From positions 744,001-808,000 of the forward strand of contig NZ_CP095757.1 in NCBI RefSeq assembly GCF_023093535.1: a stretch of 64,000 nucleotides of DNA, in the 5' to 3' direction. Under the pieces are notes generated by a model. That model searched no databases, was not told where the DNA came from, and saw only the letters and a list, made by a program, of their open reading frames with translations. A program made the position numbers and the translations under genes. This DNA is from Halovivax limisalsi (lineage in GTDB: Archaea > Halobacteriota > Halobacteria > Halobacteriales > Natrialbaceae). Positions 1,738-36,476 of this stretch are shown piece after piece (within the stretch, counting starts at the first letter, position 1; every line of letters starts with the position of its first letter).

Positions 1738-3543
1738 ATGACGTCTGCCGATCTCGAATCGATCTCTCGACGCGCCAAACTGCAGGCGATGCTCGACGTC
1801 GCCCGTTTCGATCCCAAGTTATCGATACTCATCGTCTCGTTCGGCCTCGTTGCGGCGATTCTCGAGGGTATCGGTCTGAGTTTCATCCTCCCCATCATCG
1901 AGATCGTTCAGGTCGACGATCCAACGGCCGAAGCGGACGGGCTCATGGGCGTCTTCGTCGCCGTATATGACGTGTTGGACGTCCGACTCACCCTTGGAAC
2001 CGCAGTCGTCGGCGTCGCCATAGTGATGACCGTACGGTACACCATGAGTTTCGTCGTGGCGTGGTTTCGTGAGATCCTTCGGACGTACTACATTCGTGAC
2101 TTACAATTGCGAGCGTTCGATAACGCACTCGACGCGAAGGTCGCGTACTTCGACGAGGCCGGCTCGGACGACGTGCTGAATGCGATCGTCACGCAGACGA
2201 ACTATGCCGGTAACGTCATCCAGCATTCGATCTGGTTTCTCGAAACGGCCTTCCTTTCGATGGTGTATCTCACTATCGCCCTGTTCATCGCTCCGGAGTT
2301 AACGCTATTTGCTGCAGGGGTCCTCGGGTTTCTTACCGTCTTTCTTCGTCGTGTCGTCGAACCGGGCTACGAAATCGGCGATCGCGTCGCCGAGGCGAAC
2401 GAACGACGGCAAGAAGCGGCGCAGGCTGGAACGCAGGGCATCCGTGACGTGCGTATTTTCGGCCTTGCGGACGAGTTGCGATCGGACTTCGTCGAGGCCA
2501 TCGATATGTTCACGACGTCCCGCATCGCACTCCGACGGAACGAAGCTGCAATCAACAACTTCTACAACCTCGGCGTTGCCGTCTCGGTATTCGTTCTCAT
2601 CTATCTGGCTCTCACCTTCGCGGACCTGACGATCGGTGCCCTCGGCGTGTTTCTCTTCGCGATGTTTCAACTCGGCCCCAAGGTGAGCGAGTTGAACAAA
2701 TTGCTATACAAAGTGGAAAACAACCTCCCCCACCTGATACGCACCCAGCGGTTTATCGACGAACTCGAAGCGGAGAAGGAGTCGACTGGCGGCGACACCG
2801 CGGCTCCATCCGTCATCGATATCGTCGAGTTCGACGACGTCCACTTTTCGTACGACGGAAACGAGAAAGTCCTCTCGGGAATCGATTTCGAGGTCGAACG
2901 GGGCGAGTTCGTCGCATTCGTCGGCCAATCGGGTGCTGGCAAATCGACGATCGTCTCCCTCCTGACTCGATTGTACGAACTCGACGAGGGAGAGATTCGA
3001 GCGAACGGTATCCCGATTTCGGACATGCACATCGACGAGTGGCGAGACCGAATTGCCGTCGTTCGACAGGACCCGTTCATTTTCAACGATACGCTCGAGT
3101 ACAATCTCACTATCGGCAACCGTGAGGTTACACGGGCCGATCTCGATCGGGTGTGTACCATCTCGAAGGTCGACGAGTTCTTCGGCGACCTGCCGGACGG
3201 CTACGACACCATGTTGGGTGACGATGGCGTTCGTCTCTCCGGCGGGCAAAAACAGCGCGTCGCACTGGCCCGGGCGTTGCTTCAGGACGCCGAGCTGTTG
3301 GTTCTGGACGAAGCGACGAGCGATCTCGATTCGAATCTGGAAAAGGAAGTACAACGCGCGATCGAGGCGATGGATCGCGAGTACGCGATGATCGCCATCG
3401 CCCATCGGCTATCGACGGTCGAGAACGCGGATAGAATCTATACTGTCGACGACGGCGAGATAATCGAGACCGGGACGCACGACGAGCTAATTCGATTGGA
3501 CGGCCAGTACGCAGATCTATACGCCATTCAGTCGAGCGGGTAG
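1738..3543 (+). CDS. MsbA-type ABC exporter (permease fused to ATPase), candidate glycan flippase
   Basis: This 601-residue half-transporter has an N-terminal membrane domain of about six helices (residues 30-330) followed by an ABC ATPase. Walker A (GQSGAGKST) is near residue 396, the signature LSGGQKQR near 500, Walker B with LVLDEATSD near 520, and the H-loop histidine in AHRLST near 556. All catalytic motifs are intact. Family members export lipids, lipid-linked oligosaccharides or peptides; PglK in bacterial N-glycosylation has the same layout. Its place beside nonulosonic-acid and glycosyltransferase genes suggests flipping of a lipid-linked glycan, which is inference. A close paralogue of identical length lies on the opposite strand at 22927-24732. 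The two share long identical runs in the linker after the membrane domain and in the ATPase. Confidence 0.93.
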   Translation: MTSADLESISRRAKLQAMLDVARFDPKLSILIVSFGLVAAILEGIGLSFILPIIEIVQVDDPTAEADGLMGVFVAVYDVLDVRLTLGTAVVGVAIVMTVRYTMSFVVAWFREILRTYYIRDLQLRAFDNALDAKVAYFDEAGSDDVLNAIVTQTNYAGNVIQHSIWFLETAFLSMVYLTIALFIAPELTLFAAGVLGFLTVFLRRVVEPGYEIGDRVAEANERRQEAAQAGTQGIRDVRIFGLADELRSDFVEAIDMFTTSRIALRRNEAAINNFYNLGVAVSVFVLIYLALTFADLTIGALGVFLFAMFQLGPKVSELNKLLYKVENNLPHLIRTQRFIDELEAEKESTGGDTAAPSVIDIVEFDDVHFSYDGNEKVLSGIDFEVERGEFVAFVGQSGAGKSTIVSLLTRLYELDEGEIRANGIPISDMHIDEWRDRIAVVRQDPFIFNDTLEYNLTIGNREVTRADLDRVCTISKVDEFFGDLPDGYDTMLGDDGVRLSGGQKQRVALARALLQDAELLVLDEATSDLDSNLEKEVQRAIEAMDREYAMIAIAHRLSTVENADRIYTVDDGEIIETGTHDELIRLDGQYADLYAIQSSG

Positions 3544-3801: not shown

Positions 3802-4830
3802 TCAATCCGTCTCCCGGTCGATCTGGTCGTCGGCGATCAGTTCTCCAGCGCGGATACGTTCGGCTGCCTTCTCGTCCAACACAGTGAAATACTCCCGCGC
3901 CGGTATCCCGGTTCCAGGCCGCTTCGTCGTTAGGTTCTCCTTCGAAAACGATTCTCCAGGCTCGATGTCTCGAGATGCGACGATACTGTGTTCCGCCCAG
4001 GACTTCACGGCTGCTTCTTCACCCTGCAATCCGTCCTTTTGCCCGGACGTCTCGTGGTACAACCTGGCGAACGAACTGAGGTCCTCGAACGTGTCGGGTT
4101 CGACCGAGACGGATTGGTCCGGACCGGGCAGCCGGCGGTCGATGGTGAAGTGTTTCTCGACCATCGCAGCCCCGTTTCCGATCGCGACTTTTGCGGCTTC
4201 GGCCCCCGTCGAATGATCCGAAAATCCGATCGGAACGGACGCCAGTTCCCGGAGTCGGTCGATGGTTCCGAAGTCGAAATCGGCAGCGGTTGTCGGGTAC
4301 TCGGAAACGCAATAAAAGAGCGCAAAGTCGGCTGCCACGTCGTCGATGAACGCACAGGCCTCGGCGATCTCTTCCTCGGTGTGCATACCGGTCGAAACGA
4401 GCAACGGTTTGCCCGTCTCTCCGGCCCGCGCCAGTAGTTCTCGGTTGGACAGTTCACCCGACCCGATCTTGATCGCTGGCACGTCGATGGCCTCCAGGAT
4501 CTCCACTGCCTCGACCGAAAACGGCGTCGAAAGGAACGCGACTCCGTTTTCGGAAGCGTGCGACTGGAGTTCCTCGTGATCCTCCACCGACCACTCACAC
4601 TCGCGTACGGTTTCGTAGACCTCACCTGCCCCCACTTCGTTCATCGCCGATTCGACCATCTCGGCGTCCGCGATGTGGGTCTGGAACTTTACCGCATCGG
4701 CCCCCGCCTCCGCGGCGACTTCGATAAATCGTTTGGCCAGACGACGGTCCGTCCACGCGTTGATACCGACTTCCGCGATGAGGTACGGTTTCGCTCCCGC
4801 TCCGATCGTCGAACTGCCGATTTCGATCAT
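3802..4830 (-). CDS. neuB: NeuB-family nonulosonic acid synthase
   Basis: This 342-residue protein condenses phosphoenolpyruvate with a ManNAc-type sugar to form a nine-carbon sialic-like acid. The TIM-barrel part shows GAGAKPYLIAEVGIN near the N-terminus, DAVKFQTH, PAIKIGSGE, VSTGMHTEEE and GFSDHS motifs. The C-terminal 60 residues form the SAF/antifreeze-like domain (SRDIEPGE, KRPGTGIP). I place the start at the ATG at 4830, not at the in-frame ATG at 4866, because 4830 overlaps the upstream neuA stop as ATGA and begins at the conserved MIEIG. Sequence alone does not distinguish N-acetylneuraminate, legionaminate and pseudaminate synthases. It is the last gene of the neuC-neuA-neuB operon. 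Confidence 0.93.
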   Translation of the reverse strand: MIEIGSSTIGAGAKPYLIAEVGINAWTDRRLAKRFIEVAAEAGADAVKFQTHIADAEMVESAMNEVGAGEVYETVRECEWSVEDHEELQSHASENGVAFLSTPFSVEAVEILEAIDVPAIKIGSGELSNRELLARAGETGKPLLVSTGMHTEEEIAEACAFIDDVAADFALFYCVSEYPTTAADFDFGTIDRLRELASVPIGFSDHSTGAEAAKVAIGNGAAMVEKHFTIDRRLPGPDQSVSVEPDTFEDLSSFARLYHETSGQKDGLQGEEAAVKSWAEHSIVASRDIEPGESFSKENLTTKRPGTGIPAREYFTVLDEKAAERIRAGELIADDQIDRETD

Positions 4831-5513
4831 CGGTTCCACCTCGTCATCACCTGTTCTGCCAGCCATAAATCGAACGGCGTATCGATGTCGATGGATGTGA
4901 TTTCGTCCATCTCGTAGATGGCCGTCGTGCCGGTGAGTATCTCTTCCGTTTCCCAGTACGCGTCGACGGCCGTGATATAGATGCCGCCGTTACAGACCCA
5001 CTCGGGCTCTCGATCCTGTCGTCGCTTGCTCGCATCGGTGTAATTTCGTCGTATCGCCCCCTGTTCGGTCTTCTTCCAGCGGGTTTCTGTCGTCGGATAG
5101 GCCGAAAATAGCGAGTCGACGTCCCGGTTCCTGTAGTGAGAATACGCGTCGTCGACGTCGGCAGCCGTCCGGAGGGGCGAGGTCGGTTGTAACAGCACGA
5201 AATCGTCGTACGTTTCGCCCGCCTCGGCGAGCGTTTCGAGCGCATGTGCGATCACCGGACTCGTCGGCGCTTCGTCGGTTGCCAGGGTCGGCGGTCGCAT
5301 AAACGGAACCCGTGCACCGTATTCTTCTGCGGTGTCTGCTATTTCTTCGTCGTCCGTCGAAACGATAACCGTATCGACGGAGTTCGCCGCGGTTCCTGCA
5401 CGAATCGAGTGGGCGATCAATGGCCGTCCGGCGAGTTCTCTGACGTTCTTCCTCGGGATGCCCTTCGAACCGCCTCTGGCCGGAACAATACCGACGACCG
5501 ATCGCTCACTCAT
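4827..5513 (-). CDS. neuA: CMP-nonulosonate cytidylyltransferase (NeuA family)
   Basis: This 228-residue enzyme activates a sialic-like acid with CTP to give the CMP-sugar donor. The diagnostic nucleotide-binding motif ARGGSKGIPRKNV lies at residues 12-24, followed by IVSTDDEEIAD and LLQPTSPLRT motifs of the family. The length is typical of the single-domain form. Its start overlaps the end of neuC by 8 bases and its stop overlaps the neuB ATG, so the three are translationally coupled. In haloarchaea the same family includes the legionaminic acid enzyme LegF, so the exact sugar is open. Confidence 0.93.
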   Translation of the reverse strand: MSERSVVGIVPARGGSKGIPRKNVRELAGRPLIAHSIRAGTAANSVDTVIVSTDDEEIADTAEEYGARVPFMRPPTLATDEAPTSPVIAHALETLAEAGETYDDFVLLQPTSPLRTAADVDDAYSHYRNRDVDSLFSAYPTTETRWKKTEQGAIRRNYTDASKRRQDREPEWVCNGGIYITAVDAYWETEEILTGTTAIYEMDEITSIDIDTPFDLWLAEQVMTRWNR

Positions 5514-6705
5514 GGTTCAGCAGCTCCCCCTCGGTCACGCCGTCGAGCGCAGTCGTCGTCATCGGCCCTTTCAGGGAAATATCTAGATTCGGGATGAGCG
5601 TTGCTATCTGGTCCGCTGCAGTTCCGTCTCCGTAGAGGTCCGACTTCGGATATCGGCCGTGACGCAACTGCGTCTCGATGGCGGTGACGATCTCGTCACG
5701 GTCGCATTCGACGTCGATCACGTTCTGGCCCCGTTCGCGTGCGTGCTGGCGGTCACCGATATTGACGGTCGGGACGCCAAAGAACGAGCATTCACGGATC
5801 CCGACGCTCGAATTCCCGACCATGCAGGACGAATTCCGGACCACCGTCAAATAGTCGTGCGGGTCGAGATTGATGAAGAACCGGACCTGCTTCGATCCGT
5901 TCTGCTCGCGAAACTCCCTGATCGCCTTCGAGACCTGATCGGTTCCTGCGTCCATGTTGGGCCAGAACCAGAACGCCTGTACGTCGAGAGCGGCGTACGC
6001 ATCGAGGACGGTCCGTGCCTTTTCGTAATTCGTTTCGTATTCGGTCGGGAGGGGATGGTACTGGACGACGATATATTCGTCCGAGACGTCGACGGTGGAT
6101 CCGACTCCGCCGTACTCCTGCTGTGGGTCGTAATTCGTCCTCCCGTCGGCTTCTATCTGCTGGCAGATGTCTATCGATGGACACCCGGTTCTGTAGATTC
6201 GGTCCGCTGGTTCGCCGAGCTCGTCGACGATCCGTTCGGCTCGGCCCGTCGACACACAGTGATAATCTGCGAGTTTCGTGGTAGCGTGGCGAACTTTATC
6301 GTCGATCGATCCGGTTAGTTCTCCGCCCTCGAGATGAATAACGGGGACGTTGAGATAGGATGCTGCGAGCGTCGATGCCATGGTCTCGTAGCGATCACCC
6401 GTCATCAGGACCACGTCTGGATCGATTTCGTCGAGGGCAGTGGCAAACTCGACGAGTCCAATCCCGGTCGTTTTTGCCTGTGTCACGGGTTCGTCCCCCT
6501 CAATCAACGTGTGGATCTTCTTCTCGATCTCGAGATCGTCGCTTTCTATCGTTTCGGTCAGGTTACCGAACCGATGGACGAGCGTCCCGCCCGTGATAAC
6601 CAGGCGAAGATCGATCTCCGGTGACTCTTGCAGTGCAGTGAGCACGGTCTTGATACGGGCGTATTGAGATCTCGTCGAGATAATGGACACGACGCTCGTT
6701 GCCAT
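5506..6705 (-). CDS. neuC: UDP-HexNAc 2-epimerase (hydrolysing), NeuC/LegG family
   Basis: This 399-residue GT-B-fold enzyme releases UDP while epimerising UDP-GlcNAc (NeuC) or UDP-diacetylbacillosamine (LegG). It shows VLMTGDRYE near residue 100, the HLEGGE motif, the C-terminal MVGNSSVGIRE nucleotide-binding loop, and the PTVNIGDRQ segment typical of the family. It is the first gene of the neuC-neuA-neuB operon. No LegB, LegC or LegH homologue (4,6-dehydratase, aminotransferase, acetyltransferase) sits beside it. Either the substrate is plain UDP-GlcNAc, or the other genes lie outside this window. Confidence 0.9.
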   Translation of the reverse strand: MATSVVSIISTRSQYARIKTVLTALQESPEIDLRLVITGGTLVHRFGNLTETIESDDLEIEKKIHTLIEGDEPVTQAKTTGIGLVEFATALDEIDPDVVLMTGDRYETMASTLAASYLNVPVIHLEGGELTGSIDDKVRHATTKLADYHCVSTGRAERIVDELGEPADRIYRTGCPSIDICQQIEADGRTNYDPQQEYGGVGSTVDVSDEYIVVQYHPLPTEYETNYEKARTVLDAYAALDVQAFWFWPNMDAGTDQVSKAIREFREQNGSKQVRFFINLDPHDYLTVVRNSSCMVGNSSVGIRECSFFGVPTVNIGDRQHARERGQNVIDVECDRDEIVTAIETQLRHGRYPKSDLYGDGTAADQIATLIPNLDISLKGPMTTTALDGVTEGELLNHE

Positions 6706-7026
6706 GCGTTTCGTTGAAGACCCGCGGTCCGAAGTAGCTTGTCCTTCTCTCCTTGCTCATACTGCGCGCTGTACGCCTAACACATCGACCTGGGGTCGCG
6801 GTGGCTGGACGCCGCAATTCCCCCGGCAGCTCGCAGAGACGCGACTGTCATCGCGGCATGAAACCAGTTCTCCGTCTCGGCCCCCGTTTCGATCGGCACC
6901 CGCTCCGCCGACCGTGGTGAGTGTTCGAGACGGCACGGGGCCGGCAGCCGGTCCGAGGAGCTACTCAGTCTATAACGGGGGTCTGACCGATCGATCGGTT
7001 AGTGATTCGGCTTTCGAGCGGGTCCG
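6706..7026. other. Intergenic gap, no gene seen
   Basis: About 320 bases lie between the neuC start and the end of the amidotransferase gene. I found no credible ORF in any frame and no clear TATA box for neuC. Confidence 0.4.
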
Positions 7027-8166
7027 TCAATCGAAGTTTTCGAAATCGTTCTCGGGTTTGGGTATCGGGCCGCTCAAAAACGAGCCCTCGAACAGTTCGT
7101 CATTTTTGTGCTCTTCGACGATCTCCCAGAACTCCCGGTCCGTGTATCCAGCAAATTCGAGAAAGTCATCGAGAATCGTCTGATCGAGTTTGTGGTCGTT
7201 CGCTTCGATCAACGCTCGCGCCTCGGAACGTGAGAGGTCGAAGTGGTCGCTCCGTCGCCAGTAGCCCACCACGTCAGTCGTTCGGCCGAATCCGAGTTTA
7301 ACGTATTTCAGGAAGTAGTTGATCAGGTACCCAATGGTATCGATCTGATCGAAGTCGTCGATGTACCCCGCTCTATCCCACTCGCCTGATAAGTCTCTGA
7401 ACCCGTACCGCTTGGCGAGTTGGTAGTTATCGTATCCGTCCCACGGCTGGAAGTAACTCAGGAAAACGGGTTCGAGCTGCGAGGATTCGATCTCGTCGAT
7501 CGACGGGTACTCGATCATATTGAGCTCTTCCGCTGAGAGCCCGTAGTCGAGCCAGTACTCCATTTCTACGGGTTCCGCAACGTTGTTCTCGACCATGCTC
7601 ATGGCGCTGTATGGTTCTTCGTCCGCTTCGAGAACACCGCCGTACTCCCAGCTGACATTCTCTCCATAGATGATAAATGGAATATCGAAATTTATTGCCA
7701 TCTGTAGGGGAACGCATTGTATCGCCCGTTCCGTTGCCCAGATGGGGTATCCCAGTTCCCCCTCGAACGCCGCGCGGGTCATCTTTCGTTCCGTCTCTAT
7801 CCCCATCTCCACCGTGATGAGATCACAGTTGAACTGCTCTCTCAGGTTACGGATGTTGTGCTCTCCCGCCGCCGTGCGGCTGTAACTATCCTTCACGGCA
7901 ACTAGGAGGGGGTTCATTTCCAGTTCCTCGGCCATCACGTGCGTTTGGTAGTAACTATCCTTCCCACCACTCACGGGGATAATACAATCGTACTGGCCGT
8001 CTTTGCGCCGGTATTTCTCGGCCAGCGCTTCTAATTGGTTGAACCTATCATCATAATCAACTCCAGATCGATCTGCCGCTCGTCGACAGGCCGGACACAC
8101 ACCGTCTTCGTCCAGTTCCACGCCCGGCTTGGACTCCGCCATCAGACATTCGTGACACCGACGCAT
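7027..8166 (-). CDS. N-acetyl sugar amidotransferase (PseA/WbpG family)
   Basis: This 379-residue protein has a zinc-ribbon-like N-terminus (Cys4, Cys7, Cys24, Cys27) and a PP-loop ATP-pyrophosphatase motif PVSGGKDS at residues 64-71. That layout is typical of PseA, WbpG and related sugar amidotransferases. Known members use glutamine-derived ammonia, usually with HisH- and HisF-like partners, to convert an N-acetyl group into an acetamidino group on pseudaminic or legionaminic acid, or on ManNAc3NAcA. No HisH/HisF-like partner is visible here. Its position next to the neu genes suggests the CMP-nonulosonate or a precursor is modified, which is inference. A TATA box fits a leaderless transcript starting at the ATG. 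Confidence 0.88.
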   Translation of the reverse strand: MRRCHECLMAESKPGVELDEDGVCPACRRAADRSGVDYDDRFNQLEALAEKYRRKDGQYDCIIPVSGGKDSYYQTHVMAEELEMNPLLVAVKDSYSRTAAGEHNIRNLREQFNCDLITVEMGIETERKMTRAAFEGELGYPIWATERAIQCVPLQMAINFDIPFIIYGENVSWEYGGVLEADEEPYSAMSMVENNVAEPVEMEYWLDYGLSAEELNMIEYPSIDEIESSQLEPVFLSYFQPWDGYDNYQLAKRYGFRDLSGEWDRAGYIDDFDQIDTIGYLINYFLKYVKLGFGRTTDVVGYWRRSDHFDLSRSEARALIEANDHKLDQTILDDFLEFAGYTDREFWEIVEEHKNDELFEGSFLSGPIPKPENDFENFD

Positions 8167-8525: not shown

Positions 8526-9641
8526 ATGGGTCGAAACGTCGGTACGCTCCTTAAGCGAGGCCTTCGCAACCCCCGAGAGGTTCCCCCCTACCTTCTCCGC
8601 CGACTCTCCGAATCGGTATTAGGCGGTTACGGTCATCTGTACAAATGGTTGCATCGCCCCCCGGCACAGGAACGCCGGATTCACGATTTCATATCGGACC
8701 ACGATGAATTCGTTCTAATCGTGCTCGACGCATGTAGATTCGATTATTTCGAGCGTCAGGTGTCGGACTACCTCGAGGGAACGATCGAACGAACGTGGAG
8801 TCCAGGCAGTCTCACTCCTCAGTGGGGGCCGAACGTATGGACGGACCAGTACTCGCTTACATACGTGAGTTCGAATCCCATTATCGGTGACTTCGAGTAC
8901 TCACCGCGGAACAGCGATTTCGGGTATTCGACGTACTGTGCAGCCGACCACGTGGAGCGGTTCGTCGATGTCTACAATTTTGCGTGGGATCCGGACGCAC
9001 GTACCGTATTGCCCGAGGACGTAACGAACGTCGCACTGGAGGAAGCCGCCAGACCGGAGCCGACCAGACTCGTCGTTCACTACATGCAACCCCACCTCCC
9101 GTTCGTCGGCGAGAACGAATTTTCCGATTACGTATTGGAGTACCAGGAGTCGACGGTCGATGGATCGTATTCTCCCGAGGAAAAGGCCACGTTTATGACG
9201 GAAAACGATTCTATCACGCTCGAAGAGAAACTACACTACGACATCACTTGGGGGGAAGAACTCGAGTACGACCTCACCGTTGCCGATTCCAATCAGCGGG
9301 GATACCAAGCGCTTCTCAGAAGCGGGATCAAGGATGAGGCCGCCCTCAGGGACGGCTATCGTGGTAACCTCGACGCGGCATTAGCAGCCGTTCGGACGTT
9401 AGTCCAGCGCGTGGATTGTCCGGTCGTCGTTACTGCAGACCACGGGGAGCTGCTCGGTGAGTTCGGTCTCTGGGACCATCCGGAGATCCCACACCCCCAC
9501 CTTCGAGTCGTCCCCTGGTACGAGGTCGACGCCGCGATGTGTGGAACGAAACCCAACACGCACTCACCTGTAGAGCGCGATGCAGAGCGCTCAACGTCGG
9601 AGGCCACCGAAAACCGTCTCCGAGATCTCGGATATTTATAG
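8526..9641 (+). CDS. Alkaline-phosphatase/sulfatase-fold protein of a glycan locus
   Basis: This 371-residue protein shows the hallmark LIVLDACRFD near residue 66, which supplies the first metal ligands. It also has VVHYMQPHLPF in the middle and TADHGELLGE near residue 303, with a downstream His pair (HPEIPHPH). It ends in NRLRDLGYL, a tail shared with a paralogue at 32132-33121. There is no signal peptide, so it likely acts in the cytoplasm. The superfamily contains phosphatases, sulfatases and phosphoglycan or phosphonate transferases. Recurrence of this family beside glycosyltransferases suggests it adds or removes a phosphate- or sulfate-based group on the glycan, which is inference. Confidence 0.85.
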   Translation: MGRNVGTLLKRGLRNPREVPPYLLRRLSESVLGGYGHLYKWLHRPPAQERRIHDFISDHDEFVLIVLDACRFDYFERQVSDYLEGTIERTWSPGSLTPQWGPNVWTDQYSLTYVSSNPIIGDFEYSPRNSDFGYSTYCAADHVERFVDVYNFAWDPDARTVLPEDVTNVALEEAARPEPTRLVVHYMQPHLPFVGENEFSDYVLEYQESTVDGSYSPEEKATFMTENDSITLEEKLHYDITWGEELEYDLTVADSNQRGYQALLRSGIKDEAALRDGYRGNLDAALAAVRTLVQRVDCPVVVTADHGELLGEFGLWDHPEIPHPHLRVVPWYEVDAAMCGTKPNTHSPVERDAERSTSEATENRLRDLGYL

Positions 9642-9878: not shown

Positions 9879-11669
9879 TCACGACCGATCGATAGTATCG
9901 TATCCGATCATGTCGACTGCTCGCGACTCCAGGGAGAGACGGGCCGGATACCGGATATCCCGGGGTTTGTGTTCGATGTCGAACAGGTCTCCGAGTACCT
10001 CATTGGCGTGTATCTGTCTGATATCCTGCCGAAGTATCTCACTATCGGGGTCCGACAGTGGTTGACTCGTCACCGACGTATAGAGCGGTTCGATCGCGTC
10101 GACAGCGGCATCCGGGAGTACCTCCGCAATCCGCTGCGCGATCGTTTGTGTGCGATCGATCTCTCCTTCGTCCGTAATTTTTGCGTTCCGTCTCCCGGTG
10201 AACATGTCGACGTTCAAAATGTCCTCGAACAGCTGTTCGAGGACCGCTACCCGAATTCGTTCTCCGCGTCGATACGCTTCCGGGAAGGAAAGAACCGACT
10301 GACTAATCCGATACGTCGCCAGCGGTGCGAGATGGTACGTGAACTCGTTCACCGTGTTGACGTACTTCGACTGTGATTTTCCGTTCAGCAGTTGTATCGC
10401 CTCGACGAATTCGTCTAACGACAACGCGCTTTCTGCATCGACCGAGTCCCAGTACTCAGCGAGGAACGACCCCGCGTCCTCCGTAAGTGCATCCAGGTAC
10501 GCTTCCGACGCGGTGAATTCGCCGCGCAACTGATCTATTGCGGAAAATACCTCCGTGACGATTTCGCGAATCGTTATGGGAGTCCGATTTTCCATTTCCC
10601 AATAATAGGCGTTGGAGACGGTCCCGAATCCGTATCCGCTCATCGTGAGTTGGATGTCGGACGGCAGATCACTCGAGAGGGAGTCGAAGACCGAGGGTGT
10701 CGCCCCGTACATGCGATACCGGAATCCGTACTTGCGGAATTGCTCTTCGAGCGTTTTGCTCGAAAGCGGGTAGTCACCGGTCCAATCCATTCGAGAAAAT
10801 CGGAGGTCGTACCTGTCAGCGTACGCTTTCGCCACTTCGAGGTCAGCGGTTTCGGTGTTTGTGAGGTTCGAGTTCCCCACGCCGTACAGAATCGTTGGTT
10901 CGTGTCCATGGGTCAGCACGCTGGCGAGGACCATTCGGGAGTCGAGACCTCCCGTGGCCTGTATTCCTATCGCGCCGGCCCCGTTCACCACGTGTTTACA
11001 CTGCTGGGAGAGCAGTGCCGCGTGGGTTTCGACCACTTCATCGAAGGACCGGTCGTCGTAATTCCAGTCGGTCTCCGGTATCCGAGCGGGTTCGGTCGAA
11101 AGCGTTCCCGCACCCAGATCGATAACGAGTTTCTCGGTACCGAGCAGCCGGTTTACGCCCGTATAGAGCGTCTCCCTCGAAACCTCTGCAAACTCGATAG
11201 CTTTTTGAATCAGTCGGAACTGGTCGACGGTTCGCTCGTCCAGACACTGTGCGGTAATCGCGAGCGAATTTGAAACGAACCACTTCGAGTCTTCGGCGTA
11301 ATAGGTTTCGGATACGCCGTTGGGATCGGTGAAGACGGTGATCGTCTCCCCGTGCTTGACGAGGACCGTATAATGTCCGAAGCATGCTTCTCGAACGGTT
11401 TTGAGTGAGCCGTCGGTGAATAACGTATAGACGTCGCGTAACGCTGCACCGCCGAGCTTGTCCCCACAGAACAGCGTTCCGATAACCGCGACGAAATCCC
11501 CGTTCTCGAACGCACGGAAATTCTCGGTGTCGATTGCCCGCTTTTCGTACGTCGAGATGTAATGATCGCGTTCGCGTACCGTCGCATACGGTGTTAACCC
11601 CGCCGTTTCCTGTAACCCGTTCGCTCGATCGAACGCATCGGGGTCGTCCGTCAGATGAAACCTGGCCAT
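9879..11669 (-). CDS. Asparagine-synthetase-like protein lacking the N-terminal Cys
   Basis: This 596-residue protein has the AsnB layout. A degenerate class II glutamine-amidotransferase region (1-200) precedes an ATP-PPi synthetase domain with PP-loop ATGGLDSR at 238-245. The glutaminase nucleophile (Cys2 after Met) is absent because the protein begins Met-Ala-Arg, so it probably does not hydrolyse glutamine in the usual way. Such proteins may use free ammonia or another amine as nucleophile, as in beta-lactam-synthetase-like enzymes. It follows the racemase gene after 40 bases on the same strand and appears to be the last gene of a three-gene operon with the PLP enzyme. Amide formation with an amino acid made by the other two enzymes is a reasonable but untested idea. 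Confidence 0.8.
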   Translation of the reverse strand: MARFHLTDDPDAFDRANGLQETAGLTPYATVRERDHYISTYEKRAIDTENFRAFENGDFVAVIGTLFCGDKLGGAALRDVYTLFTDGSLKTVREACFGHYTVLVKHGETITVFTDPNGVSETYYAEDSKWFVSNSLAITAQCLDERTVDQFRLIQKAIEFAEVSRETLYTGVNRLLGTEKLVIDLGAGTLSTEPARIPETDWNYDDRSFDEVVETHAALLSQQCKHVVNGAGAIGIQATGGLDSRMVLASVLTHGHEPTILYGVGNSNLTNTETADLEVAKAYADRYDLRFSRMDWTGDYPLSSKTLEEQFRKYGFRYRMYGATPSVFDSLSSDLPSDIQLTMSGYGFGTVSNAYYWEMENRTPITIREIVTEVFSAIDQLRGEFTASEAYLDALTEDAGSFLAEYWDSVDAESALSLDEFVEAIQLLNGKSQSKYVNTVNEFTYHLAPLATYRISQSVLSFPEAYRRGERIRVAVLEQLFEDILNVDMFTGRRNAKITDEGEIDRTQTIAQRIAEVLPDAAVDAIEPLYTSVTSQPLSDPDSEILRQDIRQIHANEVLGDLFDIEHKPRDIRYPARLSLESRAVDMIGYDTIDRS

Positions 11670-11709
11670 AGTTCGGTATGTCCCAATCTGGATTCGCCGT
11701 TTTATCCGT

Positions 11710-12411
11710 TTACGCTTCCTGACTCTCCCTTCCGTCTCGGCCGAACCTCGATACGCATTCGATCGCCAAAATCCGCGACGAATCGTACGTGGTCGTGGAA
11801 TCGGGCACGTCGAGGACGGATAGATCCGTACACGCGATGATGAGTGAATCGACTGACTGGCGTTCGAAGTCGGCGATTATCGATTCGAACGTCGTTTGTG
11901 CGCTGTCGTGTTCTCCCTCTTTGATCGCATATATCACGTCCATCACGGCCTCCCTCGCTTCTGGCGCGATCAGTTCGACCGTCGAATCCGCGAAATAGTC
12001 CCGATAGATTCCGGCTTCGAGCACGGTCGTCGTTCCCAGGATTCCCACACTGCTCACCCCGGCCGATTCCACCGTCTCCCGAACTGCCTGAACCATATTT
12101 AGTATCTCGACGTCCACTGAAGCCGTCAGCGCGTCGTAATAATGGTGGGCGGTGTTACACGGGATCGCAATCGCGTCGACCCCCTGGGCTTCGAGGTTCC
12201 GTGCTATCGTCCGTAGTTTTGGCAACGGGCTCTCCGCCCCGTCCAAGATTGCGGCGTTCCTGTCCGGAATCGTCGGATCGTTGTACACGATCGTCGGAAT
12301 GTGCTCCTGGTCGGTTTCGGCTGGCGTCTCGTCGATCAGCGTTTCAACGAAATTGACCGTTGCCCGTGGTCCCATTCCACCGAGCACGCCGAGTACCTCG
12401 GGTTCACTCAT
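11710..12411 (-). CDS. Aspartate/glutamate racemase family protein
   Basis: This 233-residue protein has both catalytic-cysteine motifs of the cofactor-independent racemase family: PCNTAH (Cys85) and IIACTDLS (Cys194). It also has the N-terminal GGMGPRAT signature of the aspartate racemase branch. I use the ATG at 12411, not the longer in-frame start at 12540, because the protein then begins at the conserved N-terminus and overlaps the end of the PLP-enzyme gene by 8 bases. The expected reaction is L/D interconversion of aspartate, glutamate or a related acid. Its context points to providing an unusual amino acid for glycan or small-molecule synthesis. Confidence 0.88.
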   Translation of the reverse strand: MSEPEVLGVLGGMGPRATVNFVETLIDETPAETDQEHIPTIVYNDPTIPDRNAAILDGAESPLPKLRTIARNLEAQGVDAIAIPCNTAHHYYDALTASVDVEILNMVQAVRETVESAGVSSVGILGTTTVLEAGIYRDYFADSTVELIAPEAREAVMDVIYAIKEGEHDSAQTTFESIIADFERQSVDSLIIACTDLSVLDVPDSTTTYDSSRILAIECVSRFGRDGRESQEA

Positions 12412-13372
12412 CGGAGCGGTTATCGGATCCGAACAACGTTTGGAAGTATTGTTCCCCGCCGTCGCAGACGACCGCGACGACCGTCGAATCGGGTTCTTCG
12501 GCCACGATGTCGTGGCTAACGGAGAGGGCGGCGCCAGCACTCGGACCGATCAGCAGGCCGTGATCGACGGCAGCCGATCGTGCCTGCTCGAAGGCCCGGT
12601 CATCGGAGACGTTCCGAACTTCGTCGATGTACTCGAACCACATCGTCGGGAGTTCCCGTCCTTTTCCGAGTCCTTCGACCTCCGTATCGTACTCACCGTA
12701 TTCCGAACCGTCGAACGCGGCGGAGATGTTCGAATTCTCTGCGTCGACGCCGACGATGTTGACGTCGGCGTCTCGTTCTTGCGCTCGCTCTTTGATGAAC
12801 CGTGCCGCTCCGCTGAGCGTTCCGCCCGTTCCCATGGCGCAGACGAGGTGGGTCATGGTTTCGCCGGCCTGTTGCCAGATCTCCGGGCCGGTCCACCGGT
12901 AGTGCACTTCGGGATTCGCCTGGTTTTCGTACTGATTCACGAAGAACGCGTCGTGCTCGTCCACGAGATCCTTGGCCACGCTGTGATAGTGCTCGGAGTG
13001 TTCTTCGTCCACAGACGGACACAAGTGAACAGTTGCGCCGAACGCCTTCATATAGCCGATCTTCTGCTGGCTGGTCGTTTCGGGACACGTCACGTGACAC
13101 TCGAGTCCCAATCGGTTGGCGACGAACGCGACCGCCCCGGCGGTGTTACCGGAACTCGCTTCGACGACCGTATCGAAATCGTATTCTGAACTGGCCTCGA
13201 CCAGAATCCCCATTGCCACTCGGTCTTTCATCGATCGAGTCGGGTTCTCCGTTTCGAGTTTGCACAATACATTTTGATTCGTTGGACTTCGAACGAGTGG
13301 GGTATCGCCGACCAGGTCCAACAGGGGATCGTCGGCTTCGTATGGACGTGTGTCTCGCCTTGGAACGCTCAT
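12404..13372 (-). CDS. PLP-dependent cysteine-synthase-family enzyme
   Basis: This 322-residue fold-type II PLP enzyme has the lysine motif SMKDRVAM (Lys49), the phosphate/substrate loop SSGNTA at 73-78, and the PLP-phosphate loop GTGGTLSG at 181-188. The family includes O-acetylserine sulfhydrylase, cystathionine beta-synthase and SbnA, which makes precursors of diaminopropionate. No CBS domains follow. It heads an operon with an Asp/Glu racemase and an Asn-synthetase-like protein, an unusual partnership for ordinary cysteine synthesis. It may make a non-protein amino acid such as a diaminopropionate precursor, which is inference. Confidence 0.88.
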   Translation of the reverse strand: MSVPRRDTRPYEADDPLLDLVGDTPLVRSPTNQNVLCKLETENPTRSMKDRVAMGILVEASSEYDFDTVVEASSGNTAGAVAFVANRLGLECHVTCPETTSQQKIGYMKAFGATVHLCPSVDEEHSEHYHSVAKDLVDEHDAFFVNQYENQANPEVHYRWTGPEIWQQAGETMTHLVCAMGTGGTLSGAARFIKERAQERDADVNIVGVDAENSNISAAFDGSEYGEYDTEVEGLGKGRELPTMWFEYIDEVRNVSDDRAFEQARSAAVDHGLLIGPSAGAALSVSHDIVAEEPDSTVVAVVCDGGEQYFQTLFGSDNRSDE

Positions 13373-15944: not shown

Positions 15945-16409
15945 TTAGTCTTCGATCGCATCGTCGAGATAGGACTCGACCGCCTCGGCGAACCCAACGA
16001 ACCGATCGAGACCGGTTTGTAACGCATCGTAGACGATATCATCGTTGATTACCGGGCCGTACGTGTGCGCCAGGACGTCCCGAAACCCGACCGCGTCGCG
16101 TAACTGCTGTGCGAGGTCTTCTTCGATTATATCACGTTGTTCGAGCCCCGCGATCGTATCCTTTCTCCGACCGGGAACCGAAGTGCCTTCGGCTGCGAGG
16201 ATCGTCTCGGCGACGTCGACGGTTGCGGCGATCAATTTCTCGAACTTCCGTTCGACGGCCTCGCGCTGTTCGAGCGCCTCGTCCGCACAGTACTCCGATC
16301 GCGAGAGTTTCTGGTACCGCTCGAGACCGGACACGTTCCGCTCGATGTCTTCTATCGCATCGGCGATTCGGGTGGCTCGCTCCGCCGACAGGCCATCGTC
16401 GTCACTCAT
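15945..16409 (-). CDS. hepT: HepT-type HEPN toxin
   Basis: This 154-residue helical protein has the HEPN ribonuclease motif RX4HXY (RDVLAHTY, Arg110, His115, Tyr117). It belongs with the MNT-domain partner encoded just upstream. In characterised pairs HepT cleaves tRNA and is silenced when MntA adds AMP to the Tyr of the motif; that Tyr is present here. I use the ATG at 16409, which overlaps the mntA stop, in place of a longer in-frame start at 16496. Confidence 0.9.
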   Translation of the reverse strand: MSDDDGLSAERATRIADAIEDIERNVSGLERYQKLSRSEYCADEALEQREAVERKFEKLIAATVDVAETILAAEGTSVPGRRKDTIAGLEQRDIIEEDLAQQLRDAVGFRDVLAHTYGPVINDDIVYDALQTGLDRFVGFAEAVESYLDDAIED

Positions 16410-16834
16410 CCGACCGTGCCATCCTGCAGTCGTTCGACTGCCGCTCGCACCCGCTCGCGAGCGTTCGTCACCGACGGCGCCTCGCCGGCGTAGCACTCCG
16501 CTAACTCGGCCTTTCGGGACTCGGTGCCACGAATCAGGCGTCCCTCGTCGAACGCAACGCTGGCGAACCGCGGTTCCATCGCATGGACGTCGACCACGTC
16601 GACGGGGATCGAGAGCGTCGCTTCGAGCGCCGTCTGCAGTCGCAGATACCGCTCACTGTAGCCGTCGTCCGTCGGCCGAACGGTATCGAACTCGATCGCG
16701 ACGTCCAGATCGCTCTCCTCGTCCATCGTTCCTCGGGCACCCGATCCGAACACCATCGCGAATGACACGCCGTGCTCGCCGAGGACGCGTTCTAGCACCT
16801 CGATCGTCTCCCCGTCGAGGCCGGACCCGTGCAT
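16406..16834 (-). CDS. mntA: MntA-type minimal nucleotidyltransferase antitoxin
   Basis: This 142-residue protein has the nucleotidyltransferase signature GSX10DXD (Gly30-Ser31, Asp42, Asp44) and a later VDVVDV strand supplying the third acidic residue. Family members AMPylate HepT and so act as antitoxins. The ATG at 16834 starts directly at the conserved N-terminus; the longer open frame to 17152 has no homologous content. It overlaps hepT by ATGA. Confidence 0.9.
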   Translation of the reverse strand: MHGSGLDGETIEVLERVLGEHGVSFAMVFGSGARGTMDEESDLDVAIEFDTVRPTDDGYSERYLRLQTALEATLSIPVDVVDVHAMEPRFASVAFDEGRLIRGTESRKAELAECYAGEAPSVTNARERVRAAVERLQDGTVG

Positions 16835-17220
16835 GGATGACAGTTTATCGCGACACCACAAAGATGTATCTCCCCCAGAAAGCCATCTGCGTTCGGCGGT
16901 TCCCTGCCCGCCGACGCTCAAACTGGAGCGACCGTATCGTCGATCGGTGCGAGCGCGTACGTCTGGACGGTCCCATGTCGTGACGATCATTTCGACGTCC
17001 CTGGCGCTCTTCCCCCGCGATGGCCGATTTGCGCCGTCGGTGGGCCCGTTTCTCGACGAACGAGCGATTTCAGTCGTCCGTATCCGGCGACCGTGGGCGG
17101 ACGGATTCGATCGCTTCAGTGGGCCACCGTAACCCGCTGACCGACGTGGCACACAGCGATTCCAACGAACACGAATCGGGCAATTGGTCTGGGCGGACTG
17201 GTTGTCGGACTACGCCCCTC

Positions 17221-22926: not shown

Positions 22927-24732
22927 TTACCCGCTCGATTGAATCGCGTACAGGTCCGCATACTGTCCATTTTCTTTAATTAGTTCCGAATGCGTTCCGG
23001 TTTCGATAATTTTTCCATCCTCGACGGTATAGATCCGATCGGCGTTTTCGACGGTCGACAGGCGGTGGGCGATTGCGATGATTGCGTACTCGCGGTCCAT
23101 CGCTTCGATCGCCGTCTGTACCTCCTTTTCTAGGTTCGAGTCCAGATCACTGGTCGCCTCGTCGAGAACCAGCAATTCGGCATCCTGTAATATCGCCCGT
23201 GCGAGTGCGACGCGTTGTTTCTGGCCGCCCGAAAGCCTGACTCCCTCGTCACCGAGTATCGTCTCGTATCCGTTCGGCAACTCGTCGAAGAACTCGTCGA
23301 CTTTCGCGATCTCACAGGCTCGATCAAGCTCGGACCGCGTCGCCTCTCGGTTCCCGATCGTCAGGTTGTACTCCAGCGTGTCGTTGAAGATGAACGGGTT
23401 CTGCCGAACGACGGCGACACGATCACGCCACTGACCGACGTCGTAGTCCTCGATATCGATCCCGTTAGCCCGGATCGACCCATCGTCGATCGGGTACAAC
23501 CGAGAGACAAGCGAGACGATCGTACTTTTCCCGGCGCCTGACTGCCCGACGAAGGCTACGAACTCGCCTTTATCCACGCCGAAATCGATCCCGTCGAGCA
23601 CCTGCTCCTCTTCGTCGTACGAGAAGTGGACATCGTCGAATTCGAGGTGGTCGATGGTCTCCGGAACGTCTCGCGTTCCGTCGGTTGGTTCCTGTTTCCG
23701 GGCAAGTTCGTCGATGAACTCCTGAGTCCGAACGAGGTGCGGCAGGTCGTTCTCGACGTTGTACAGCAGTGTGTTGACCTGACTTACCCTCGGACCGAGC
23801 TGAAACATTGCGAAGAGGAAGACGCCGAGCGATCCAATCGACAGGTTGGCGAACGTCAGTGCGAGGTAGATGAGTACGAAGACGGAGACGGCAACACCGA
23901 GTTGATAGAATTGGTTGATCGCGGCCTGGTTTCGCCGCAGCGTAATTCGCGAGGAGGTGAACAGGTCGATCGCATCGACGAAGTCCTGGCGCAGCTCGTC
24001 CGCCAGGCCGAAGATGCGGACGTCGCGGATGCCCTGCGTTCCGGCCTGGGCCGCCTCTTGGCGCCGTTCGTTTGCCTCGGCGACACGGTCACCGATTTCG
24101 TAGCCCGGCTCGACGACCCGTCGGAGGAAGACGGTGAGGAATCCGAGGATCCCAGCCGCGAAGATCGTCAGGAGCGGTGCGATCATGAGCGCGATCGAAA
24201 TATAAACGAGCGAAAGGAATAACGTCTCCAACAGTTTGACGACGCGTTGAATTACGCGACCCGCGTAGTTGGTCTGGGTAACAATCGCGTTGAGTATATC
24301 GTCGGAGCCCTCCTCGTCGTAGTAGGAAACCTTTGCGCTGAGGGCGTTGTCGAAAGCGCGAAGCTGGAGGTCCCGGATGTAGTATGTTCTAAGCGCTTCA
24401 CGAAACCATGCGACGACGAAACTCGTTGTGTAACGGATCGTCATAACGATTGCAACGCCGACGACGACGGTCCCGAGGGTAAACCGAACGCCGAGTAGGT
24501 CGTAGGCTGCGACGAACATACCCATGAGACCGTCCGCTTGGGCCGTCGGATCGTCGATCTGGACGATCTCGATGATCGGCATGATGAAGCTCAGACCGAC
24601 GCCTTCCAGTACGGCAGCGACGAGGCCCAAGAAGACGATTAGCACCGTGAATTTGGGATTGAATCGGGCGACGTCAAGTAACGCTTCGAGTTTGTCGCGT
24701 CGCGTTACCGATTCGGACTCGGATGCAGGCAT
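22927..24732 (-). CDS. MsbA-type ABC exporter, paralogue of the one at 1738
   Basis: This 601-residue half-transporter has the same domain order and length as the protein at 1738-3543. It has an intact Walker A (GQSGAGKST), signature LSGGQKQR, Walker B with LVLDEATSD and H-loop AHRLST. Much of the two sequences is identical, including the whole segment from VVEPGYEIGD to FGLADELR. Divergence is concentrated in membrane helices 3-4 and in the linker before the ATPase (EFIDELARKQEPTDG here). Candidate flippase for the glycan made by the 25-48 kb block; this role is inference. Confidence 0.93.
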   Translation of the reverse strand: MPASESESVTRRDKLEALLDVARFNPKFTVLIVFLGLVAAVLEGVGLSFIMPIIEIVQIDDPTAQADGLMGMFVAAYDLLGVRFTLGTVVVGVAIVMTIRYTTSFVVAWFREALRTYYIRDLQLRAFDNALSAKVSYYDEEGSDDILNAIVTQTNYAGRVIQRVVKLLETLFLSLVYISIALMIAPLLTIFAAGILGFLTVFLRRVVEPGYEIGDRVAEANERRQEAAQAGTQGIRDVRIFGLADELRQDFVDAIDLFTSSRITLRRNQAAINQFYQLGVAVSVFVLIYLALTFANLSIGSLGVFLFAMFQLGPRVSQVNTLLYNVENDLPHLVRTQEFIDELARKQEPTDGTRDVPETIDHLEFDDVHFSYDEEEQVLDGIDFGVDKGEFVAFVGQSGAGKSTIVSLVSRLYPIDDGSIRANGIDIEDYDVGQWRDRVAVVRQNPFIFNDTLEYNLTIGNREATRSELDRACEIAKVDEFFDELPNGYETILGDEGVRLSGGQKQRVALARAILQDAELLVLDEATSDLDSNLEKEVQTAIEAMDREYAIIAIAHRLSTVENADRIYTVEDGKIIETGTHSELIKENGQYADLYAIQSSG

Positions 24733-26661: not shown

Positions 26662-27623
26662 ACCACGACTTCTGGGACGGGAAAACGGTCATGGTAACCG
26701 GTGGCGCCGGATTCCTCGGCAGTCATCTCGTGGAGGACCTCGAATCCCGCTCGGAGGATGTCGAAGTCTTCATCCCTCGAAGCGATGAGTATGATCTCCG
26801 CGAACGGGGCGACATCAGGCACGCCTTTCAGGATTCCGACGCAGACATCGTCATCCATCTCGCCGCCACCGTCGGCGGGATCGGCGCGAACCGGGACAAC
26901 CCGGGACGGTACTTCTACGACAACGCCATCATGGGCATTGAGCTGATTGAGATGGCCAGACGGTTCGATGTCGAGAAATTCACCATTCTCGGGACTATCT
27001 GTGCCTATCCCGAGAATACGCCCGTCCCATTCAGCGAAGAGGATCTCTTCAACGGGTATCCCGAACCAACAAACGCACCGTACGGGATCGCGAAAAAGGC
27101 ACTTCTCACTCAGTCGAAGGCGTACCGGAAGCAATACGATTTCAGTAGCATCTATCTGATGCCGGTCAATCTCTATGGACCTCGAGACGACTTCGATCTC
27201 GAAACGTCGCACGTGATCCCCGCGATTATCCGCAAGTGCGTCGAAGCGCGCGAACGTGGCGACGAATCGATTACTGCTTGGGGCACCGGTGAACCAACTC
27301 GGGAGTTCCTCTACGTCGAAGACGCAGCTGAGGGGATTCTTGACGCGACCGAACGCTACGACCAGAGTGATCCCGTCAATCTCGGTAGCGGCGACGAGAT
27401 CAGCATTCGCGCCCTCGTCGAGACGATCGCGGATGTGACGGACTTCGATGGCGCAATCGAATGGGATACGTCGAAGCCGGATGGTCAAATGCGACGCCGC
27501 CTAGACGTGTCTCGGGCCAGGGAGTATTTCGGCTGGGAAGCGGATACCGCCTTTGATATCGGTCTTCGTAAAACTGTGGAATGGTATGAGGAAAATAGGG
27601 GAAATATGGCAAATACCCGCTAA
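26658..27623 (+). CDS. fcl: GDP-L-fucose synthase-like epimerase/reductase
   Basis: This 321-residue SDR has GGAGFLGSH at 15-23, the family-specific [20 protein letters not shown], and catalytic YGIAK (Tyr142, Lys146). [11 protein letters not shown] near the C-terminus matches the KPDG-x-RKLLD of GDP-fucose synthases. I use the ATG at 26658 (ATGA overlap with the dehydratase gene), not the one at 26634. The product is probably GDP-L-fucose or a related deoxyhexose. Confidence 0.88.
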
Positions 27624-27680
27624 ATCATATATAGTTGGTTTATAAGGGGTCTACTGCGGGACTACAAGTTCGGGCCTTCC

Positions 27681-28802
27681 TCACATCTCACGGTCTATTG
27701 AACTGTCAACTCCGTTTCTCTCTAAGAGTTGGATATATCTCTCTGCCATTGTCCTCGCGGAATAGTTTTCAACAACCCACTCTCTAGCTGCCTCTATTGG
27801 AGCAGTTTCATCGCTTTCAACCAGGTCTCTTATTGCTGAGGCGATCTCCCTGGGGTTATTCGTATCCGTAAGCCTTCCAGCGTAAACCAGTTCGGCGATC
27901 CCTCCAGTTTTTGGAGCTACAACTGGTACCCCAGCCGATTGTGCTTCCAGTAGTACGGAGGGTTGACCCTCCGAACGCGAGGATAAAACAAAAATATCCG
28001 ATCGGTTATAATATTTATTAAGTAGGCCGTGGTCGACCCAACCTTCAAAACTAATTTTATCCCCCAAACCCAGCGATGCTGCCATATCTTTATATTGTTC
28101 GAATTTCGTCCCCTCACCAACTATTGTCAGGTGGTACTCTTTATCAACATCTGAACCCAAAATTTGGATTGTTTGTAGCAATAAATCTACCCTTTTCACC
28201 GGATCCAACCTACCGACATATAAGAGGTTTACTACATCTTCATTCGACTCCTTTTCATAACGGGGATGGAATCTGTCTACGTCCACCCCATTTGGGATAA
28301 TTGTGGGTTGGTTGCCGATCAAATTGTAGAGGTCTTCCTTGATATAGTCTCCTAACCCAACCACCTCGTCAGCTAATTTGAGGGCAATCCGTCCAAACGT
28401 TTTCGTGTATACGGTAGCAACGGTATCAACGACGTAGTTTCCGTATTTCCACTCTTCGCCCGGCAGTGCATCAACCGTTAAGATCGATGGAGTCCCTTTC
28501 GCTCTTGCCATCAGGACACTCAACACTGTCGGGATATATATACAGGAAACTGCGATTATAGCGTCGGCGGTTGTAATATGGCGACGTAATAGGAAGAGAA
28601 AACGCGGACTCGGAAGCGTATACCGGATTCCAGGTATAAACCAAGCTGGGTACGTCACAGTATCTATTCCCGATTCAGGGCTATAACTAAACCCAGAAGG
28701 CGCAAGGATTTTCACATCGTGGCCATCAGAGGAAAATTCTTCAGATAATATTTTAACCGTTTTCCGTATTTGTTTGGTTGGATTTATAAAAACTACCTTC
28801 AT
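27681..28802 (-). CDS. Glycosyltransferase family 4
   Basis: This 373-residue GT-B enzyme starts MKVVFINPTKQIRKTV and has the C-terminal donor-binding motifs LLYVGRLDPVKRVD and EGQPSVLLEAQSAGVPVVAP, with the E-x7-E pair typical of GT4. It is a retaining transferase using a nucleotide sugar; the acceptor is unknown. The ATG at 28802 is preferred to 28904 because it begins at the conserved first beta strand. Codon and base use are AT-richer than in the flanking blocks. Confidence 0.9.
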   Translation of the reverse strand: MKVVFINPTKQIRKTVKILSEEFSSDGHDVKILAPSGFSYSPESGIDTVTYPAWFIPGIRYTLPSPRFLFLLRRHITTADAIIAVSCIYIPTVLSVLMARAKGTPSILTVDALPGEEWKYGNYVVDTVATVYTKTFGRIALKLADEVVGLGDYIKEDLYNLIGNQPTIIPNGVDVDRFHPRYEKESNEDVVNLLYVGRLDPVKRVDLLLQTIQILGSDVDKEYHLTIVGEGTKFEQYKDMAASLGLGDKISFEGWVDHGLLNKYYNRSDIFVLSSRSEGQPSVLLEAQSAGVPVVAPKTGGIAELVYAGRLTDTNNPREIASAIRDLVESDETAPIEAAREWVVENYSARTMAERYIQLLERNGVDSSIDREM

Positions 28803-28865
28803 TGAACTGATGGCCGATTGTTGGCAACGCTGTCTTTTAATGCTATTGCCTCCAAGACCCGCCAT

Positions 28866-29933: not shown

Positions 29934-30577
29934 CTAGATGGGATTGATCACTATCTCTGAGATGGGGCTCATCCCCGTTGCAACTCACGATTTAGAAGGT
30001 GCAACCCCTTTGTACCAGAGCGAGATGTCGTCCGGAGCGTGGGACGAAACTTATACGCACCATGTCATCCACCGCCAGGATCCATCGTCCCGCAGCCATG
30101 GTTCTATCGTCGATGAGAACAATAGAAATTTGAAGATGATACACTTCGGGCGTCCGCGATGACGTCAACCCCGTTGATCACAACGAAAACCGAGCGAAGG
30201 ATTGACACCGACGTTCATAATGTAACGCGAACGTGGAGGACGATCTATCTCCTGCTTACGGTTATACTGTACGCCAAGTCCTAGGAGGTGATTTGGCCGA
30301 ATTCCCACTAGGTGATCTGCTAGTAAGCCTTATCAGAACGTCAGAGCTGGTCCCCCATGCCAAACCACTGGGTATCAACATCGCCGGTATTGAATTGGCT
30401 TAGAAGGAAGACTGGGTACGAGGTCACGTCCTTTGGATTTCACATTCACTGACGGTGGCTATATCTTCGGGATCAACAGGCTACACCTGGGGTGAAAACG
30501 AGGGTCCAGGAACAACCAACGATATCCATCGCGTCGGTCAAACCTGGCTAATTGGAAAGGAAGTCCGTGATTGAAAC
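29934..30577. other. Gene debris, no intact gene
   Basis: Short rightward frames of 74 codons (29938-30162) and 41 codons (30159-30284; contains TWRTIYLLLTVILYAK) overlap as ATGA. Another of 31 codons (30357-30452; WLRRKTGYEVTSFGF) follows. They read like fragments of real proteins, but none resembles a complete family I know. The stretch is probably the remains of one or two deleted glycan genes. Confidence 0.4.
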
Positions 30578-33121: not shown

Positions 33122-33225
33122 CGGTATTGGATAAGAAACGGGGTGTGGGGCTTTCCAAGGAATTACTGGGACGTTTCCCTCTGACTTATCCATATTGTAC
33201 CGGTGATTGCTGGAACCTGTCGAAT

Positions 33226-36364: not shown

Positions 36365-36476
36365 GGCTTAACTAACCTTCCTGTATCGGAATCTCCGTAG
36401 GGGCTTGAATCTTTTGCACCGGTGCATTCATCACCTTATGCGAAAGGTTCTAATGATGCCGGTCTGATTTGTGTCT

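Follow-up and report, generated by a model that had tools for sequence, protein, structure and literature searches.

What brings a PLP-dependent enzyme, an Asp-type racemase and an AsnB-like protein together beside the nonulosonic acid genes of Halovivax limisalsi? The window analysed here, a stretch of 64,000 nucleotides at positions 744001-808000 of the 3.89 Mb genome of this haloarchaeon (G000), holds the following features.

12404..13372, minus strand: PLP fold-type II enzyme of the CysK/CBS/CapA/SbnA superfamily, 322 aa (PF00291, 7e-71)
11710..12411, minus strand: Asp-type two-Cys PLP-independent racemase, 233 aa (PF01177, 8e-35; NF052483, 231 bits)
9879..11669, minus strand: predicted Cys-less ATP-dependent amide synthetase with the AsnB/beta-lactam-synthetase fold, 596 aa (PP-loop TGGLDSR; Foldseek 1jgt/1q15/7ylz/1ct9; hhalign to sister families)
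8526..9641, plus strand: alkaline-phosphatase (AP)/sulfatase-superfamily protein, 371 aa (PF00884, 8e-7)
7027..8166, minus strand: WbuX/PseA-like N-acetyl sugar amidotransferase (TIGR03573, 303 bits, cut-off 203.2)
5506..6705, minus strand: NeuC-type hydrolysing UDP-GlcNAc 2-epimerase of the nonulosonic acid pathway (TIGR03568, 357.8 bits, cut-off 235.9)
4827..5513, minus strand: CMP-nonulosonate cytidylyltransferase, PseF/NeuA-like (PF02348; TIGR03584 below cut-off)
3802..4866, minus strand: NeuB-family nonulosonic acid synthase (PF03102, 1e-68, and SAF domain)

The first three genes form a tight operon: the racemase gene overlaps the stop of the PLP gene by 8 bp, and 40 bp separate the racemase stop from the ATG of the AsnB-like gene. 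Three leftward, closely spaced genes had already been described in the sequence-only reading that preceded this analysis, and they were found as described, except that the racemase starts at the ATG at 12411 and not at the listed ORF start, the GTG at 12540. NeuC, NeuB and the CMP-transferase occur together as a nonulosonic acid set, in which NeuC scores above the TIGR03568 cut-off and the other two are assigned by Pfam, both lying below the NCBIfam equivalog cut-offs. We propose, with a probability of roughly 0.55, that the locus encodes a surface-glycan tailoring module, in which an acidic beta-substituted amino acid would be made, racemised and amide-coupled to a nonulosonate-containing glycan.

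Recurrence of the trio and of the PLP and AsnB-like pair

We searched 391 haloarchaeal genomes for relatives of the three proteins. AsnB-like matches were confined to five genomes, namely Halovivax limisalsi itself, two with 39-43% identity (G109 and G023) and two with 29-30% (G150 and G307). The racemase matched in ten genomes at 1e-20, with close relatives (49-52%) only in G000, G109 and G023. Close relatives of the racemase (at least 49%) and of the AsnB-like protein (at least 39%) are found in the same three of the 391 genomes, which represent three families; the chance of this coincidence is about 1e-7 in a simple draw, and the co-occurrence of the trio is not due to chance. All three loci also hold the PLP gene, the AP-superfamily gene, NeuB, NeuC and the CMP-transferase, and the AP-superfamily protein, 52-56% identical across them, has been co-inherited with the trio. 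Each trio gene has relatives of 39-61% identity in loci of other families. G000 and G109 share the order PLP-racemase-AsnB-like; G023 has a divergent PLP gene, and its racemase gene comes after the AP gene. Neither of the other trio loci showed a counterpart of the WbuX/PseA-like amidotransferase gene of the window, which therefore falls outside the conserved core. No further close racemase was detected in 170 genomes of the family of G109, nor any further close AsnB-like member in 125 genomes of the Halovivax limisalsi family. The module is rare and has probably moved horizontally. The sequence-only reading had staked its proposal on finding the trio in other haloarchaea, and our search located it in two other families, accompanied by nonulosonate genes.

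The PLP gene and the AsnB-like gene recur together beyond the trio. The PLP subfamily was matched in 19 of the 391 genomes, a count that includes three divergent relatives (L044-L046) with altered PLP-phosphate loops, none of which adjoins an AsnB-like gene. In 11 of the 19 genomes, the PLP gene adjoins an AsnB-like gene or lies one racemase gene away from it, and four different AsnB-like families stand beside the same PLP subfamily. Eight of these pairs were recognised by PF00733, two (G000 and G023) by family homology and one (G371) by its PP-loop. Random placement would give 0.35 PF00733 pairs where eight were observed (P about 7e-10); this null model ignores the shared preference for glycan islands and the kinship of the genomes. 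At the nine loci where spacing was measured, with crude gene starts, no called gene intervenes in seven, a 1.1 kb gap in one and the racemase gene in one. The racemase gene is absent beside the pair in eight of the 11 loci, and pairs of this kind fit an order in which the product of the PLP enzyme would pass, through the racemase where there is one, to the synthetase. Glycosyltransferase, nonulosonate or aglB genes occur in all trio loci and in nearly all loci with the pair, several of which carry an STT3/AglB gene for N-glycosylation. None of the three genes had been regarded as a usual glycan gene; this view is not supported in that form, as the PLP and AsnB-like genes constitute a recurrent accessory pair of haloarchaeal glycan loci.

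The PLP enzyme, the racemase and the amino acid

The PLP enzyme appears to produce a beta-substituted L-amino acid. With the cysK, CBS, CapA and SbnA models it scored about 169-214 bits and exceeded none of their cut-offs; the CapA cysteate synthase model NF053679 gave 207.6 bits (cut-off 600) and the SbnA model TIGR03945 gave 169 bits (cut-off 349.95). Its best PDB match is 9k2p, the cysteate synthase CapA, which itself scores above the CapA cut-off. The motifs EASSGNTAG and EGLGKGxELPTMWF are strictly kept in the PLP subfamily, which is monophyletic in 200 of 200 bootstrap trees, and the tree with CapA, CBS and CysK has no firm deeper order. The closest non-archaeal relatives (61-67%) belong to salt-loving Rhodothermota, for example Salinivenus and Longimonas, and the gene is present in 10 of 80 genomes of the order. 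The sulfonolipid halocapnine has been reported in Salinibacter, Salinivenus and Salisaeta, unlike Rhodothermus (PMC5167729). No CapA above the cut-off was detected in eight such Rhodothermota genomes. We considered the Salinibacter lineage as proof of cysteate synthesis, but this argument was weakened by ComA, another route towards cysteate, in 8 of the 10 Rhodothermota genomes with the PLP gene. By eye, we noticed neither a cysteate acyltransferase or sulfonolipid gene beside the PLP gene nor a recurrent neighbour in the Salinibacter-lineage neighbourhoods.

The racemase had been credited with both catalytic Cys residues, and these are confirmed by its motifs CNTAH and ACTDLS, which align with PhAspR/PtAspR. 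In the alignment, it also keeps the Arg/Lys positions of archaeal Asp racemase, which we take to be the binders of the acidic substrate, and an acidic substrate is therefore to be expected. The nearest solved structures are archaeal aspartate racemases. The CuyB cysteate-racemase model NF052483 gave 231.4 bits, above its cut-off of 190. However, the aspartate racemase of Picrophilus (5b19), used as a control, also passed this model with 194.9 bits, so the CuyB model does not separate cysteate from aspartate, and we dropped it as proof of the substrate.

Cysteate is favoured by the combination of CapA as the best PDB match, the halocapnine-containing Rhodothermota kin, the score above the CuyB cut-off and the acidic-substrate residues, and its case is weakened by the frequent presence of ComA in Rhodothermota and by the lack of a sulfonolipid gene beside the PLP gene. 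In our judgement, cysteate is the leading candidate, although short of an even chance, and aspartate and any other amino acid are each a step less probable. The same module might instead couple D-aspartate, supplied by an ordinary aspartate racemase; the product of the PLP enzyme would then be another substituent with no relation to it, for instance of the diaminopropionate type. The structural neighbours of the racemase would suit this alternative, as would the inability of the CuyB model to tell the two substrates apart and the position of the PLP enzyme below every functional cut-off. On the other hand, the translational overlap of the PLP and racemase genes together with the racemase-free pairs suggests that the PLP product is the substrate of the synthetase, and the SbnA score (169 bits against a cut-off of 350) argues against diaminopropionate. 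We regard the D-aspartate alternative, the strongest of the rivals, as unlikely but deserving of serious weight.

The AsnB-like synthetase and its probable sugar acceptor

The AsnB-like protein has no Pfam match. It contains the PP-loop TGGLDSR, in which GG-DSR is invariant in the family alignment, and it begins with MARF, lacking Cys2, the nucleophile of the glutaminase domain; this residue is gone in all AsnB-like families with an aligned N-terminal domain. The motif SGEGxDE of E. coli AsnB is replaced by SGYGFGT, so that the canonical E348 and D351 are not kept, and the region of the conserved Lys is variable among the aligned synthetases. Y346 occupies the column of AsnB E348 in four of five members, and the Lys is not conserved. 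A Tyr at the Glu348 position is presumably also a feature of beta-lactam and carbapenam synthetases, a type with a Tyr-Glu catalytic dyad and Lys443. The SGYGFGT sequence and the variable Lys region leave ligase activity less than assured.

An AlphaFold2 model calculated from an alignment of 12 relatives (pLDDT 72.5, pTM 0.75) replaced an earlier model with a pLDDT of 56. Foldseek matched it best with beta-lactam synthetase (2e-14), carbapenam synthetase (3e-14) and TsnB9 (2e-13), and human and E. coli asparagine synthetases were also among the matches. By hhalign, the 596-aa family is related to a 540-aa family across 431 columns and to a 620-740-aa family across 200 columns, and the best PDB sequence match of the latter is beta-lactam synthetase (4e-8). 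Judged from the best fold matches (Foldseek ranks 1-11) and the missing Cys2, the protein is predicted to adopt a beta-lactam/carbapenam-synthetase-type fold with a degenerate and Cys-less N-terminal domain. The designation "AsnB-like" is thus upheld at the level of the fold but not beyond it.

Beta-lactam and carbapenam synthetases as the closest folds would also be compatible with a trio that makes a small compound for secretion, resembling a beta-lactam or a siderophore, and whose position in a glycan island is accidental. SbnA-type enzymes are members of siderophore pathways, which agrees with such a role. The glycan setting of all trio loci and nearly all pair loci speaks against it, and a reading of the neighbourhoods, not specific to NRPS or siderophore genes, noticed no carrier-protein or other metabolite gene nearby. 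We therefore consider a secreted metabolite highly improbable. The sequence-only reading had placed a non-protein or D-amino acid, linked through an amide, either on a surface glycan or in a secreted metabolite; of the two, attachment to the surface glycan fits best, and none of the neighbourhoods read favours the metabolite.

Sugar carboxamides in O-antigen loci are probably formed by AsnB-fold enzymes (WbpS), and by this precedent the AsnB-like protein might couple no amino acid. It would then turn a uronic or nonulosonic acid into a plain carboxamide, or modify it in some other ATP-dependent way, while the PLP enzyme and the racemase serve separate amino-acid needs. The loss of the canonical E348, D351 and Lys positions is consistent with this explanation, as are L047 and L048, two of the five loci of the 596-aa family, in which the stretch read holds no PLP gene. 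However, Cys2, which is needed to obtain ammonia from glutamine, is missing from every family with an aligned N-terminus, and the presence of four AsnB-like families beside one PLP subfamily also speaks against it. The carboxamide explanation is distinctly improbable.

Amide coupling of an amino acid requires an acceptor, for which the neighbourhoods point to a nonulosonic acid, as four of the five genomes with the 596-aa family have it in a nonulosonate locus or close to NeuB. Besides NeuB and an aminotransferase, the G150 locus carries another AsnB-like gene and a polysialyltransferase-like one, and the stretch read there holds no PLP gene. We rejected AglB linkage for the trio in the window, as aglB is located at 1.87 Mb in Halovivax limisalsi, more than 1 Mb from the trio; it is 0.8 Mb away in G109. 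With aglB far off in both genomes, we do not claim an N-glycan for the window.

The proposed module and known systems

The operon layout, its gene content and homologies, and its recurrent linkage to nonulosonate genes are observations, on which the substrates, the acceptor and the orientation of the amide are inferred. In the proposed tailoring module, the PLP enzyme would form an acidic L-amino acid with a beta substituent, L-cysteate made from O-phosphoserine and sulfite being the most likely, and the Asp-type racemase would convert it into the D-form. The synthetase, Cys-less and of the AsnB/beta-lactam-synthetase fold, would then activate a carboxylate with ATP and couple it to an amine that is not ammonia from glutamine. 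The product would be an amide linking the amino acid to the nonulosonic acid, or to a uronic acid next to it, in the surface glycan; the amide may also run in the reverse direction, from the amino-acid carboxylate onto an amino sugar. Counting against this module are the CapA score of 208 against a cut-off of 600, about equal to those for CysK and CBS, and the full gene set in three genomes only. In its most specific form the proposal is doubtful: some haloarchaea would carry D-cysteate amide-linked to a sialic-acid-like surface sugar, and the ligases responsible would be a new Cys-less clan of the asparagine-synthetase fold, recurring in haloarchaeal glycan loci together with a synthase dedicated to a beta-substituted amino acid. 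If cysteate is the amino acid, haloarchaeal glycans would have a carbon-bound sulfonate as an alternative to their sulfate esters, made by an enzyme family common to halophilic sulfonolipid-making bacteria.

We found no published account of this module in the open-access literature, which leaves out most subscription journals, but its components can be compared with known systems. Beta-lactam and carbapenam synthetases (1jgt, 1q15), the top structural matches, share the AsnB fold, the Cys-less N-terminal domain and the PP-loop, but identity is 12-15%, no Lys is conserved at the expected place and the neighbours here are glycan genes. The hydroxyamidotransferase TsnB9 (7ylz) has the AsnB fold, the top TM-score (0.57/0.58) and the sole, weak PDB sequence match to the family profile (E 0.56); unlike the Halovivax limisalsi protein, it begins with MCG and thus keeps Cys2. 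CapA (9k2p; NF053679) is likewise a fold-type II PLP enzyme with the common SSGNT and EG(I/L)GK motifs, whereas our enzyme stays far below its cut-off and does not branch firmly with it. CuyB and archaeal aspartate racemase share with our racemase the two-Cys fold, the acidic-substrate Arg/Lys and an NF052483 score above the cut-off. The legionaminic acid N-glycan pathway of Halorubrum sp. PV6 also places NeuB, NeuC and CMP-transferase in a haloarchaeal glycan locus, but the available part of that account describes N-formyl in place of an amino acid and does not name PLP, racemase or AsnB-like genes (PMC6137143). The closest chemical parallel is the N-glycan of Methanococcus voltae and M. maripaludis, in which ManNAcA6Thr carries Thr at position 6, on the sugar carboxylate (PMC2952790). 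As proposed here, an archaeal surface glycan bears an amino acid on one of its sugar acids, but the amino acid is Thr, the organisms are methanogens and no PLP/racemase pair has been described. The enzyme attaching this Thr had not yet been identified in 2010 (PMC2952790); for such glycan-linked amino acids of archaea, the PLP and AsnB-fold pair is a concrete candidate, and in the window it is associated with a sialic-like sugar and a predicted D-amino acid.

Surroundings of the trio in the glycan island

An ABC transporter gene stands on each side of the block of nonulosonate and trio genes; the two resemble each other at about 75% and are inverted relative to one another. The glycan island also holds a toxin-antitoxin pair.

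1738-3543, + strand: MsbA/HepA/PglK-like ABC transporter gene
15945-17152, - strand: HepT-like/MntA-like toxin-antitoxin pair
22927-24732, - strand: MsbA/HepA/PglK-like ABC transporter gene

Between 14193 and 20814, segments of 60-205 nt are repeated in three to seven copies that are 60-94% alike. The GC content at 27000-38500 is 42-49%, versus 55-70% in the surroundings; this patch includes glycosyltransferase genes and encodes a 621-aa protein with few acidic residues, for which a Pfam search returned no match.

Relatives of the trio enzymes in other genomes

Three PLP relatives have an altered SHKDR motif and lack the GTGGT phosphate loop, and the first catalytic Cys is replaced by Ser in two racemase relatives.

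L044:9323-10423: divergent PLP relative
L045:8949-10124: divergent PLP relative
L046:9268-10335: divergent PLP relative
L046:13769-14389: Cys-to-Ser racemase relative
L129:9771-10442 (genome G201): Cys-to-Ser racemase relative

The racemase relative of L046 lies 3.4 kb away from the divergent PLP relative of that locus, and the called neighbours of the G201 one included no PLP-subfamily match. In genome G344 (L040:7847-8983), a DUF1611 gene adjoins the PLP gene in place of an AsnB-like gene. The nonulosonate locus of genome G150 (L047:4597-5862 and 5944-6972) contains a further AsnB-like gene and a polysialyltransferase-like gene.

ComA as another route towards cysteate

The window's genome also carries a gene for ComA, of the phosphosulfolactate synthase family (G000:C1:3730248-3730997), as does the majority of the Rhodothermota genomes tested.
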